A stretch of DNA of 52,149 bases, taken from the NCBI RefSeq assembly GCF_963082495.1, contig NZ_CAUJAN010000005.1, positions 107,501 through 159,649 on the forward strand, in the 5' to 3' direction. The translations under genes and the position numbers were made by a program. The notes beneath the pieces were generated by a model. The model searched no databases. It saw only the letters and a list, made by a program, of their open reading frames with translations, and was not told the origin of the DNA. Positions 3,173 through 7,045 of this stretch are shown one piece after another. Numbering within the stretch: position 1 is the first letter of the stretch; each line of letters opens with the position of its first letter. The DNA is from Methanobrevibacter sp. V74. GTDB lineage: Archaea; Methanobacteriota; Methanobacteria; Methanobacteriales; Methanobacteriaceae.

Positions 3173-3355
3173 AATTATAGATTATAATTTATTTTAAATA
3201 AATGTTTAGGGTCTGTCAAAATTTAATTGCAGAATAATGTTTATTGAGCAATTTAGCATGAAAAGATTTAATATTCCTTTAATGCTCAAAAAATTGGAAA
3301 AATATTATGCTGAAATTCAGAATACCTAATACCGCTAGTGAAAAAAAGATTTTAA

Positions 3356-3421
3356 AATAAGCCTCAGCTCGCCCATCATTCATCACATATCAGAGCTCAT
3401 AGGGTTCATCATAGGCCTATT
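3356..3421 (-). ncRNA. C/D box guide sRNA (2'-O-methylation guide)
   Basis: Read on the minus strand this 66-base stretch has every element of an archaeal C/D box sRNA in order. The C box AUGAUGA is at 3112-3106 of the thousand (positions 3406-3412), followed by a 12-nt guide, D' box CUGA (3390-3393), a 3-nt spacer, C' box GUGAUGA (3380-3386), a second 12-nt guide and the D box CUGA (3364-3367). The flanks AATAGGCC and GGCTTATT can form an 8-bp closing stem with one G-U pair. Both guides are exactly 12 nt, the spacing typical of archaea. By the D+5 rule, guide ACCCUAUGAGCU would direct methylation of the fifth base (C) in AGCUCAUAGGGU, and guide AUGAUGGGCGAG the fifth base (C) in CUCGCCCAUCAU. 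It starts 14 bases after the PAN stop codon and may be processed from that transcript. The rest of this intergenic region (3173-3355) shows nothing clear. Confidence 0.88.
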
Positions 3422-3435
3422 ATTTTTAATTAAAG

Positions 3436-4692
3436 TTATCCGAACATTACGCCAGCTTCTGTTTTGAACAATTCGTCTTCTTTAGTTTTACTCATGACCT
3501 TATCGATAGCATCCATAAAATCATCTATAGTAACTTTATCACGTTTTTCACGAATTGCAAACATACCTGCTTCAGTACATACTGCCTTTAAATCTGCACC
3601 AGATAATTCATCAGTTAACTCAGCAAGCAAGTCAATTTCTGCTTCATCATCTAACGACATGTTTTTAGTATGAATTTTAAGAATTTCACGTCTTCCATCA
3701 ATATTTGGAAGGGGAACTTCAATGAATCTGTCAAAACGGCCAGGACGTAATAATGCAGGGTCCAGGATATCCGGTCTGTTGGTTGCACCAATAATTCCGA
3801 TATCTCCTCTGGATTCAAATCCGTCAAGTTCTGCTAAAAGTTGCATTAGAGTTCTTTGAACTTCTCTGTCTCCACTAGTGGAACTTTTAAGTCTTTTAGC
3901 TGCAACAGCATCTAATTCATCTATGAATATGATTGCAGGAGCTTTTTCTTTTGCAAGTTCAAAGACTTCACGAACAAGTCTTGCCCCTTCTCCAATGTAT
4001 TTTTTGACAAATTCGGAAGCTACAATCTTAATAAAAGTAGCATTGGTTTCATTGGCTACTGCTTTTGCAAGCAAAGTCTTACCTGTTCCAGGAGGTCCAT
4101 ATAATAAAATTCCTTTAGGCGGTTCAATACCGATTTTTTCAAATAGTTCAGGTTCTGTTAAAGGAAGTTCAACAGTCTCTTTTACTTCAATAATCTGTTC
4201 CTCTAAACCACCGATTTTTTCATAAGTTATATCCGGTTTAGTTTCAATTTCCATTCCAGAAACATTTGCATCTTTTTCAGACGGTAAAACTTCAACAATA
4301 CCGAAAGTTTGTTGATTTAATGCTACTCTAGAACCCGGTACTAATAATTTTTCATCTAAGAATTTTGAGTAGTTAACAAGAAAACTAGGCCCAGTACTGC
4401 TTTTTACAGTCATTCTATTATCATCTAAAACTTCAGTTATAGTAGCCAGTACTAAAGGGGGAGATCTAAATCTATCTACTTCAGAACGTAATGATTTAGT
4501 TTCTCGTTCTAGTCTAATTTTTTCATTTTCAATTAGGACTTTATCCTTTTCTAATTTCCTAACTTTCCACATTAAGTTACTTTTAGCTTTGGATTTATCT
4601 TCTCTTAAAGAAACTATCTCCTCTTGTAGAGATTCTACTTTTTCGATTAATTGTTCTTTTGACGAATTTTCCAAATCATTAAAATCATCCAT
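3436..4692 (-). CDS. pan: Proteasome-activating nucleotidase (PAN), AAA ATPase
   Basis: This encodes the ATPase ring that unfolds proteins and feeds them into the archaeal 20S proteasome. Domains in order: an N-terminal coiled coil (about residues 8-78, heptad-like and charged), an OB-type domain (about 80-140), and one AAA module with Walker A GPPGTGKT near residue 200, Walker [10 protein letters not shown], a second-region-of-homology segment [20 protein letters not shown], and a C-terminal helical domain. Length is 418 residues from the chosen start at 4692, normal for PAN. An ATG 9 bases upstream overlaps the GGAG ribosome binding site, so the inner ATG is preferred. The C terminus ends in MFG, a variant of the HbYX gate-opening motif with Phe in place of Tyr. 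It is transcribed divergently from the aMBF1 gene. Confidence 0.96.
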
Positions 4693-4701
4693 GTGAATCA
4701 T

Positions 4702-4853: not shown

Positions 4854-5345
4854 ATGGAATGTGAAATCTGTGGCAAACCTGTACCTGAAAACAATCCGAT
4901 AAAAGCAAAAATTGAAGGATCAGTTATGATTGTTTGTAAAGAGTGTGCGAAACTTGGTAAAATCCAAAAAACACCTCCTAAACCAAAATTTGCAAAACAA
5001 AATAAAGCAAAAAGACCTGCAAAAAATAGAAATAAATCATATGCTAAAAGTGAAGAATCCACTGAAGAGTTAATTGAAGACTTTAGTATTGAAATTAGAA
5101 AGGCCAGAGAATCAAAAAATTGGTCTCGTGAGGATTTAGGTAAAAAAATCAATGAAAGAGTTTCTGTTATTTCAAGAATTGAAACCGGCAAAATGACTCC
5201 TGATAATAAACTAACTAAAAAACTAGAAAAAACATTGGATATAAAATTACTTGAAAAAATAGACAATATCGATTTAAATCAATTTATTAACAGTTCATCT
5301 GGAGAAAGAAGTTTAGGAAATATTATGAAAATTAAAAGAAAATAG
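4854..5345 (+). CDS. Archaeal multiprotein bridging factor aMBF1 (zinc ribbon plus HTH)
   Basis: A 163-residue protein that opens with a zinc ribbon (CEICGKPV at residues 2-9 and CKEC near 31), followed by a flexible basic linker rich in Lys, Asn and Ala, and then a Cro/C1-type helix-turn-helix from about residue 75 (ARESKNWSREDLGKKINERV, VISRIETGKMTPDNKLTKKL). This is the layout of the archaeal MBF1 homologue, a conserved DNA- or ribosome-associated factor thought to link TBP to regulators or to act on translating ribosomes. The gene is monocistronic: divergent from PAN and convergent with the next gene, with their stop codons directly abutting at 5345/5346. Confidence 0.9.
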   Translation: MECEICGKPVPENNPIKAKIEGSVMIVCKECAKLGKIQKTPPKPKFAKQNKAKRPAKNRNKSYAKSEESTEELIEDFSIEIRKARESKNWSREDLGKKINERVSVISRIETGKMTPDNKLTKKLEKTLDIKLLEKIDNIDLNQFINSSSGERSLGNIMKIKRK

Positions 5346-5361
5346 CTATTTATAGCTATTT
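5340..5361. terminator. Palindromic hairpin spanning two convergent stop codons
   Basis: A perfect inverted repeat, AAATAGCTA then loop TTTA then TAGCTATTT, lies exactly at the junction of the two convergent genes. The TAG stop of aMBF1 (5343-5345) is in the left arm, and the TAG stop of the opposing gene (5346-5348 on the minus strand) is in the same arm. T-rich sequence follows in each direction, so it could end both transcripts. Confidence 0.5.
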
Positions 5362-5774
5362 AATTTATCATTTTTAATGTGCCTTTCTTTTTTATTTACT
5401 TTATAATCAATCATCCCATCATTAACGGCTTTGTGTGAATGATATCCCTGGAAATCTTGAGCATTATTCAAAACATATTCCAATTTAGAATAAGCACCAT
5501 ATTCATGACTTACAACTACGACATGAGCGGGAGGATGGATTTTTTTAACTTGTATAATGCTTAAAGTAGTATCTTCTTTTACAAAAAATGCAGCGGCAAC
5601 ATTAGAGGTTGTTTTAAGTTTTGAATTTAAAATTCCTTCTACTAATGAATCTGCAAAAGCAGCATCAACTACTTTAGGCTTTGATGTTAAATTCAAATTA
5701 CCATGACGTTCTATATCTGCAATTGCATTAAGTAATTTAGAATTATTTTCACCACGAATCAATATTAACGCCAT
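5346..5774 (-). CDS. Conserved methanogen protein of unknown function (DUF356-like)
   Basis: A 142-residue protein when started at ATG 5774 (MALILIRGENNSKLLNAIAD), which sits five bases after a GGTGAT ribosome binding site. A start nine bases further upstream would overlap that site. I believe it belongs to the methanogen-specific DUF356 family because of its opening and the segment QVKKIHPPAHVVVVSHEYGA, but this is from memory. It is cytosolic, with mixed alpha/beta character and a basic, Asn-rich C-terminal tail. It is last in a minus-strand string below the two membrane-anchored proteins and the Mur ligase, with its ribosome binding site overlapping the upstream stop codon, so it is probably cotranscribed with the pseudomurein genes. 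Confidence 0.6.
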   Translation of the reverse strand: MALILIRGENNSKLLNAIADIERHGNLNLTSKPKVVDAAFADSLVEGILNSKLKTTSNVAAAFFVKEDTTLSIIQVKKIHPPAHVVVVSHEYGAYSKLEYVLNNAQDFQGYHSHKAVNDGMIDYKVNKKERHIKNDKLNSYK

Positions 5775-5779
5775 AATAA

Positions 5780-7045
5780 TCACCTATTTTGGAAAGATTT
5801 CAACAACCTTGATCTGAATACCACTAACAATATTAAAATAATACCTACTGCAGTTTGAATGCTTCCAAGAATATTTAATATATTACCATCAATTGGCAGG
5901 TCCCAAACCGGAGCAGACCGGTCTCCTGGAAGTGCAGTATAGTAAACACCAACTGCTTTAGATCCTTGTTTTACATTAATATCTTTAGGTTCCACATGAT
6001 CAACGCCCATTAAAAGACCATTATTAATACCTCTATTAATAGATCCTGCAATAGCAGATGCATCATAACCATATTTTGCAACAGATGCTTCTACAATTTC
6101 AGTAGTAGTAGATGCTAATCCCGGCTTATCACTTCCATAAACTGACACACTAACTGAATTTTGACTTACGGTTAAGGCAGAACCTAGTGCTTCATATGCA
6201 TAAACAGTTCTTAATTCTCCACCACAAACCGGACACTTATCATAAGCTTCCGCTGCAGGAAAACCCATAGCCCATCCACAGTCATCACAAACCTTGGAGT
6301 ATTTTTCATCCATCGGATAACCTGATGTGTTCAAATCTTTAGGAGTGAACATGTCTGAAGTCGAAATTCCAGATACTAAGTTTACTCCACCACCACCATA
6401 TTTTTCACCAGAATCTTTAGCTACTTCCCCCATAGCTTCAGAGAGAATTGTAGTGGCAGGATATCCATCTCGAATCATCTTTCCAATATTCATTGCAGTT
6501 TCTTTTCTAACGCTATCTGCAGTACCGTATAATGGGTTTCCTGCAGTATTCCTTAAGTGAATAATAGCTCCTTTTTCACCAGGCTGTAGTGTAGCTACAC
6601 CACTAGTATAAGGAGTTACTTTAATTTCATTACTTGAATCATCTACTGTGATAACGTATGCATTAAATGATCCGCCAATAGCCGCCCCCATACTTGGACC
6701 GCCAACTAACAAACGAGCACCTTTGTATTGAGATGCTAATGAAGCTGCTGAAGCTGCAGATGCATTGTTTTCTAAACTTGCTACAGCATCCACAATAGAG
6801 TCCAACCTTGTATCAGAACTACCAGTACCTCCAGAAAGTACTGCAAAATGATTATTTTTAGACATTAAAAATGTTGACTGAAACATGTTGTCTGCAAAAG
6901 ACATACTTCCTGCAGCAGCACCATTTGGATCTTCACCTGAAGGGTCAGTGATAACAATAATGTTACAAGTAGCCGCGACACTACTCATAGTCATTAATGC
7001 AATAATTAAAAAAACAATCGATACATGAAATGCCTTATAATTCAT
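5780..7045 (-). CDS. Membrane-anchored protein with internal zinc ribbon, unknown function
   Basis: A 421-residue protein. Residues 1-25 form a signal peptide or N-terminal anchor (VSIVFLIIALMTMSSVAA), and a strongly hydrophobic stretch near 393-411 (IQTAVGIILILLVVFRS) ends in a basic tail, so most of the chain is probably outside the membrane with a C-terminal anchor. A Gly-rich segment (LLVGGPSMGAAIGGSF) resembles nothing I can name. Near residue 253-276 is a four-cysteine zinc ribbon (CDDCGW, CPVCGG), unusual for a predicted exported domain. Its ATG overlaps the stop of the preceding gene (ATGA), indicating translational coupling. Its position beneath the Mur ligase and MraY-like genes suggests an envelope role, which is inference only. 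Confidence 0.6.
   Translation of the reverse strand: MNYKAFHVSIVFLIIALMTMSSVAATCNIIVITDPSGEDPNGAAAGSMSFADNMFQSTFLMSKNNHFAVLSGGTGSSDTRLDSIVDAVASLENNASAASAASLASQYKGARLLVGGPSMGAAIGGSFNAYVITVDDSSNEIKVTPYTSGVATLQPGEKGAIIHLRNTAGNPLYGTADSVRKETAMNIGKMIRDGYPATTILSEAMGEVAKDSGEKYGGGGVNLVSGISTSDMFTPKDLNTSGYPMDEKYSKVCDDCGWAMGFPAAEAYDKCPVCGGELRTVYAYEALGSALTVSQNSVSVSVYGSDKPGLASTTTEIVEASVAKYGYDASAIAGSINRGINNGLLMGVDHVEPKDINVKQGSKAVGVYYTALPGDRSAPVWDLPIDGNILNILGSIQTAVGIILILLVVFRSRLLKSFQNR

Follow-up and report, generated by a model that had tools for sequence, protein, structure and literature searches.

The minus strand of Methanobrevibacter sp. V74 carries, immediately downstream of the gene for the proteasome-activating nucleotidase (PAN), a canonical double-guide C/D box small RNA (sRNA). 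The stretch of DNA analysed here, referred to as the window, comprises 52,149 nt of assembly GCF_963082495.1 (contig NZ_CAUJAN010000005.1, positions 107,501–159,649, forward strand), and the element occupies minus-strand positions 3421–3356, 66 nt from stem to stem. The gene is real and widely conserved, and it is very probably functional. We hold with high confidence that the sRNA would guide 2'-O-methylation of the wobble cytidine C34 of elongator tRNA-Met before splicing and, most likely, of C2558 (E. coli numbering) in 23S rRNA. It is ordinary in kind. Its unusual features are the rigidity of the guides, the linkage to PAN, the near-solitude of the gene and the probable pairing of a tRNA target with an rRNA target.

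Read 5' to 3' on the minus strand, the element opens with the first half of the terminal stem, AATAGGCC (3414–3421), followed by a single T and the C box ATGATGA (3406–3412). Guide 1, the D' guide, is the 12-nt segment ACCCTATGAGCT (3394–3405), which ends at the D' box CTGA (3390–3393). A spacer, TAT (3387–3389), whose length varies from 3 to 7 nt in relatives, separates the D' box from the C' box GTGATGA (3380–3386). Guide 2, the D guide, is the 12-nt segment ATGATGGGCGAG (3368–3379), and the D box CTGA (3364–3367) leads into the second stem half, GGCTTATT (3356–3363). All four boxes were read directly and recur in relatives, and the C' box is also backed by a shuffle control. RUGAUGA motifs for C and C' and CUGA motifs for D and D', in this order and closed by a terminal stem, are the arrangement of archaeal C/D box sRNAs. 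The initial annotation of the window had described these boxes, two 12-nt guides, a 3-nt D'-C' spacer and an 8-bp closing stem, and all of them are present at those places, with one G-U among the eight stem pairs. It had also placed the element outside any reading frame, in line with our finding that no open reading frame (ORF) of at least 60 aa overlaps 3356–3421. The G+C-richer island that it reported holds locally (0.44 in 3361–3426 versus 0.24–0.36 in four adjoining or overlapping segments) and no further, because parts of PAN reach 0.52. Folded alone, the sRNA is weakly structured (z −1.60), and 13 of 200 shuffled sequences fold equally well or better.

C and D boxes are short, and relaxed searches for them yield false positives (PMC7994747; here and below, statements from cited papers refer to parts of those papers), which would favor reading the element as a chance look-alike without function. 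We consider this practically negligible. The window contains a single instance of the half-pattern TGATGA-N8..14-CTGA-N2..16-TGANGA, whereas 100 dinucleotide shuffles averaged 0.01, and the full C/D pattern is absent from 200 mononucleotide shuffles of the window. In the searched part of the V74 genome, the full pattern has one match and its reversed control none. Across 18 genomes, the strict pattern matches this gene and nothing else in 17, while the reversed pattern gives 0 matches in all 18. Conservation and stem covariation, described below, also argue against chance. No Rfam family matched the window at its gathering threshold. The best sub-threshold matches are archaeal C/D families, namely sR1 (38.4 bits, cut-off 45), sR2 (37.5 bits, cut-off 42) and snoPyro_CD (27.9 bits, cut-off 45), and sR49 (RF01303) scored 14.5 bits against a gathering cut-off of 50. 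This list supports only the general class of the element.

The element is conserved throughout the genus and the class. With a 90-base query, the element was detected in 64 of the 67 genomes belonging to the genus, including all 37 good ones. We built a covariance model from the window copy and 37 relatives; these 38 sequences match it by construction, among them the window copy itself at G000:C5:110856-110921. The model matched 139 of 151 class genomes (90/91 good ones), covering all four families and 19 of 20 genera. A phylum-level search returned only class members already covered (95 genomes, 94 matching). On the negative side, 12 of the 151 class genomes lack a model match, and one of them (G101) is a good one. 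The RNA is present in 159 of 161 scanned sources, many of which are the same contig taken twice, and the two sources without it are cut PAN loci. Conservation of the boxes in relatives had been set beforehand as a test that could refute the prediction, and the boxes are kept across genus and class. Their intactness and the 12-nt guide length are partly given by construction, because the scan demanded both; the guide letters were left free.

Comparing 64 distinct full-length copies, other families included, revealed that nucleotides 2–11 before the D' and D boxes are invariant in both guides, in 64 of 64. The same invariance was seen in the 44 distinct copies from PAN loci alone. The guide ends behave differently. 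In guide 2, nucleotide 1 is unconstrained (T 32, G 19, A 13) and nucleotide 12 varies (A 54, T 6, C 4), while nucleotides 1 and 12 of guide 1 vary rarely (3/64 and 2/64). In this core, both guides are unchanged across a class, which contrasts with the accelerated evolution of archaeal guide sequences described in a review (PMC7994747).

The terminal stem, on the other hand, has changed in a compensatory manner. In the 38 sequences, seven of the eight pairs changed on both sides. Stem cells are paired in 86.8% versus 70.1% in shuffles, double-change cells number 56 versus 24.5, and the covariation score is 0.469 versus 0.197; none of 500 shuffles was as high in any of the three measures, and the score lies at 0.06–0.14 when the stem is slid. 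Two coarser counts speak less clearly for the stem: pairs with double changes number 7 versus 5.8, a value reached by 66 of 500 shuffles, and further pair types 13 versus 10.9, reached by 46 of 500. The initial interpretation of the element as a C/D box guide sRNA is supported by this conservation, together with a match of guide 1 to a stable RNA.

That match lies in a 110-nt tRNA gene of the same genome (G000:C4:270555-270664), one of 32 tRNA genes found with the Rfam tRNA model (150 of 204 candidates scored, so that the list may be incomplete). By its sequence and its 36-nt intron after position 37, the gene is an elongator tRNA-Met (tRNA-eMet); the splice site and intron position were placed by our reading of the anticodon stem. 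Around the 5' splice site it reads GGCTCATA|GGGT and pairs with all 12 bases of guide 1, one pair being G-U. The initial annotation had predicted an exact 12-mer as the target. A stable RNA with full pairing was found, but the G-U pair means that it is not that exact 12-mer. C34 is placed at D'+5, and the 10–12 nt complementarity to a stable RNA, with the target base at this position, corresponds to what is seen in archaeal C/D guides. Intron bases provide 3 of the 10 core pairs and 4 of the 12 pairs in all. The complement of the 10-base core, GCTCATAGGG, occurs twice in the searched part of the genome, in the tRNA-eMet gene and as the complement of the sRNA gene.

The target is conserved along with the guide. 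In 34 genomes searched, the target 12-mer is identical in all 30 intron-bearing genes, and no full-length gene was found in the other four. In a set of 24 genomes (the hits in G173 and G174 being only partly read), 19 have an intron-bearing tRNA-eMet with the core site, G094 has its 5' half at a contig end, and G163 and G167 show none. The deepest relative, G093, carries a different intron of 21 nt, still starting with GGG. Intronless tRNA-eMet genes were sought as a negative control among the sRNA-bearing genomes, and none was found.

We notice that the exon bases of the site are shared by other tRNAs. The initiator and tRNA-Ile2-like CAU tRNAs of the V74 genome carry GGCTCATA too, followed by AACC. 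The predicted energy of the isolated 12-mer duplex is −20.3 kcal/mol with the pre-tRNA and −10.4 kcal/mol with the spliced elongator, the initiator or tRNA-Ile2. The shared exon bases and these energies imply that guide 1 would depend on the intron bases, work on the unspliced RNA and favor the elongator. We therefore picture nucleotides 2–11 of the D' guide as pairing with unspliced elongator pre-tRNA-Met through seven 5'-exon bases, GCUCAUA, and the first three intron bases, GGG. The wobble cytidine C34 would be 2'-O-methylated while the intron is still in place, and the intron bases would separate tRNA-eMet from the two other CAU tRNAs with the same exon bases. Judging from these sequences, guide 1 very probably directs methylation of the elongator tRNA-Met anticodon before splicing.

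Several observations weigh against this assignment. Only 11 of the 24 genomes hold GCTCATAGGG twice; the rest hold it 3–10 times (6–10 in family f3). The extra copies, where read, lie mostly in non-tRNA places, and the tRNA-type copies are the tRNA-eMet genes, the half gene at a contig end in G094 and an additional eMet-like gene in G107. Five genomes with the sRNA (G069, G080, G083, G163 and G167) yielded no elongator tRNA-Met, which may reflect assembly gaps; in G069 and G083, the CAT tRNAs are the initiator and tRNA-Ile2 by our reading. The conserved GGG of the intron is probably also held by splicing structure. Finally, two other archaea are reported to carry 2'-O-methylated C34 (Cm34) on their initiator tRNA-Met (PMC7668247), so that Cm34 in general is no elongator-only mark.

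In the same study of three archaea, Cm34, also seen in one tRNA-Trp, is described as locking C34 to codon G3 and preventing misreading of AUA, and the same CAU anticodon on tRNA-Ile carries agmatidine (PMC7668247). The sRNA suggests a simple means by which Methanobacteria could mark elongator tRNA-Met and spare its CAU look-alikes, with the address lying partly in the intron.

Three side observations concern these tRNA genes. The intron-containing elongator tRNA-Met was missed by ARAGORN and found by the Rfam tRNA model. One CAU gene labelled tRNA-Met reads, in our hands, as tRNA-Ile2. In G107:C99:10233-14731, two elongator tRNA-Met-like genes lie approximately 4 kb apart with the same intron, one of them with an altered acceptor stem.

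For guide 2, the exact target 12-mer given by the initial annotation, CUCGCCCAUCAU, was not found in the 16S rRNA of the same genome or in its 32 tRNA genes. The own 16S also holds no full-core site, and neither it nor the tRNA genes found contain a site with at most one unpaired base. A run of 5000 N at G000:C4:75001-80000 lies beside the own 16S, where the 23S rRNA is expected. Searches with an archaeal large-subunit rRNA model matched 0 of 1, 0 of 14 and 2 of 18 genomes, leaving 30 of the 32 other genomes unmatched. In the two relatives with a match, G144 and G147, the best guide 2 site within the 23S rRNA is ggctgTTCGCCCATTAAagg, in the A-loop hairpin of helix 92. G144 and Methanosphaera sp. 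rholeuAM130 carry the same sRNA, letter for letter. The site pairs with nucleotides 2–11 of guide 2 through nine Watson-Crick pairs and one G-U pair, and it differs from the predicted 12-mer, reading UUCGCCCAUUAA. It is the sole full-core site in 2589 nt of the G144 23S rRNA, the runner-up having 9 pairs, including 8 Watson-Crick pairs. With the loop UGUUC numbered U2552–C2556 (PMC4644070), C2558 falls at D+5. The main text of PMC4644070 does not contain "2558"; the A-loop sites named there are U2552 and C2556.

Permutation puts this match in perspective. Of 2000 permuted guide 2 cores, 12 have a site as good. Less favorably, 79 have a site with at least 8 Watson-Crick pairs and 725 have some 10-pair site when G-U is allowed; the site itself was read in two relatives, whose readable piece leaves out approximately the first 400 model positions of the 23S rRNA. 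These figures, the G-U in the match and the unread 23S rRNA of V74 lend weight to a different view, in which guide 1 acts as described and guide 2 either lacks a target or serves a different one, such as another stable RNA or an unread part of the 23S rRNA. Ten consecutive bases of guide 2 are, on the contrary, invariant in all 64 distinct copies, other families included, which is unexpected for an orphan, and the only full-length site found belongs to the A-loop hairpin, which is known as a methylation hotspot (PMC4644070). We regard the orphan view as a serious minority possibility. From base pairing, C2558 in helix 92 is the somewhat better-favored target, and the D guide would most likely direct its methylation. 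According to PMC7994747, citing Pyrobaculum work, tRNA-targeting sRNAs have one guide without a target. The invariance of the second guide suggests that the sRNA may be an exception to this rule.

Guide 1 belongs to a known kind, since Cm34 tRNA-Met guides have been published. A 2008 paper described free-standing C/D sRNAs that guide Cm34 formation in intron-containing tRNA-Met and gave 18 candidates, and the intron bases in those duplexes mean that Cm34 must precede splicing (PMC2584109). In Haloferax, the Cm34 guide for tRNA-Met is sR-tMet (PMC4033218). Like sR49 of Pyrococcus and sR-tMet, the sRNA described here is encoded outside any intron, as a C/D sRNA of its own, and its guide would pair with pre-tRNA-Met including intron bases (PMC2584109; PMC4033218). 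Unlike sR49, it falls below the Rfam sR49 cut-off, and the class-wide frozen guides, the site 3' of PAN and a plausible rRNA target of guide 2 are set down for this sRNA alone. The intronic guide of pre-tRNA-Trp, sR50, directs Cm34 and Um39 before splicing through a duplex that takes in bases of the intron (PMC2584109; PMC7994747), and the sRNA would likewise direct Cm34 on an unspliced pre-tRNA, but the sR50 guide is the intron itself, whereas here the gene is free-standing. With archaeal dual-guide rRNA C/D sRNAs (Dennis et al., 2015, PMC4644070), it shares the box order and guides of approximately 10–12 nt, and its predicted antisense match to 23S rRNA near the A-loop is of the kind known from them. 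The difference is that one of its guides would target a tRNA and the other an rRNA. A member from Methanobacteria may already be among the 18 candidates of PMC2584109. A limited literature search found no report of class-wide guide freezing, PAN linkage, the probable tRNA-plus-rRNA pairing or strict-C/D solitude in 17 of 18 genomes.

The single strict match per genome has one counterexample. The deep-branching G093 has 17 strict C/D matches (G093:C1:83651-1179824), some of them overlapping, seven of which lie within approximately 20 kb. Because the strict pattern would miss degenerate sRNAs, the single match elsewhere shows this gene to be the only canonical one and no more. Published C/D sRNA counts, 7 in the mesophile Methanococcus maripaludis and 26–128 in six thermophiles (PMC4644070; PMC7994747), go the same way. 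We tentatively raise a further idea, which we consider doubtful: mesophilic and moderately thermophilic Methanobacteria might have kept the C/D system essentially for this PAN-locked sRNA, which would methylate pre-tRNA-Met at its wobble base and the 23S rRNA in helix 92, while their deep-branching relative keeps many sRNAs. If true, AUG decoding and the ribosomal A site would be served by one molecule. Should most of these methanogens have no other canonical C/D sRNA, a single gene could help to show why a mesophile keeps the fibrillarin system.

The linkage to PAN is conserved as well. In the window, the upstream neighbor is the PAN ORF (3436–4701, minus strand), with Pfam AAA, proteasomal ATPase OB and AAA lid domains, and the sRNA stem starts 14 nt past its stop codon, which bears out the position downstream of PAN given initially. 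We collected 80 PAN loci by protein search, independently of the RNA, from genomes including Methanobrevibacter, Methanosphaera, Candidatus Methanovirga and Methanoflexus. In 78 of these loci, PAN is followed on its 3' side by the C/D pattern. The two others are contigs ending 78 and 6 bases past the PAN match, and the longer one is cut inside the D box of guide 2, with the RNA otherwise matching. In loci taken by hand from other genera, the sRNA lies on the same strand downstream of PAN in 20 of 20 (11 from other families); 2 of these 20 contigs are also among the PAN loci. The gap from PAN stop to stem is 3–189 nt, with a median of 13, in 42 of 43 loci measured among the 80 PAN loci.

Downstream of the element, a T7 tract (3341–3347, minus strand), 8 nt after the stem, is the probable end of transcription. 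Among the 75 PAN loci whose sequence reaches far enough, 63 show T6 or longer in the 40 nt that follow the RNA, compared with 83 of 1054 control windows. A bacterial promoter and terminator scan of the window is uninformative for an archaeon. The arrangement makes co-transcription with PAN, ending at the T tract, the likely route of expression, and this fits the account in PMC7994747 that most archaeal C/D genes do not require a promoter of their own and mature by protection in the ribonucleoprotein (RNP). The sRNA would then be bound by L7Ae, Nop5 and fibrillarin.

The tight linkage to PAN and the T tract after the element could also be expected if it were a kink-turn bound by L7Ae in the PAN 3' untranslated region, regulating or ending the PAN mRNA without acting as a guide in trans, and L7Ae does recognize kink-turns in many RNAs (PMC5539422). 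A regulatory kink-turn, however, needs no two guides frozen at nucleotides 2–11, and the complement of guide 1 is otherwise confined to a tRNA gene in this genome. We consider the kink-turn very improbable beside a trans-acting guide sRNA transcribed with PAN.

Beyond PAN, the window holds a divergent gene for a helix-turn-helix protein (HTH_3; 4854–5345, plus strand), whose start resembles a zinc finger and points to an MBF1-type factor. A gene for a DUF356 protein (5346–5783, minus strand) lies one gene further from PAN.
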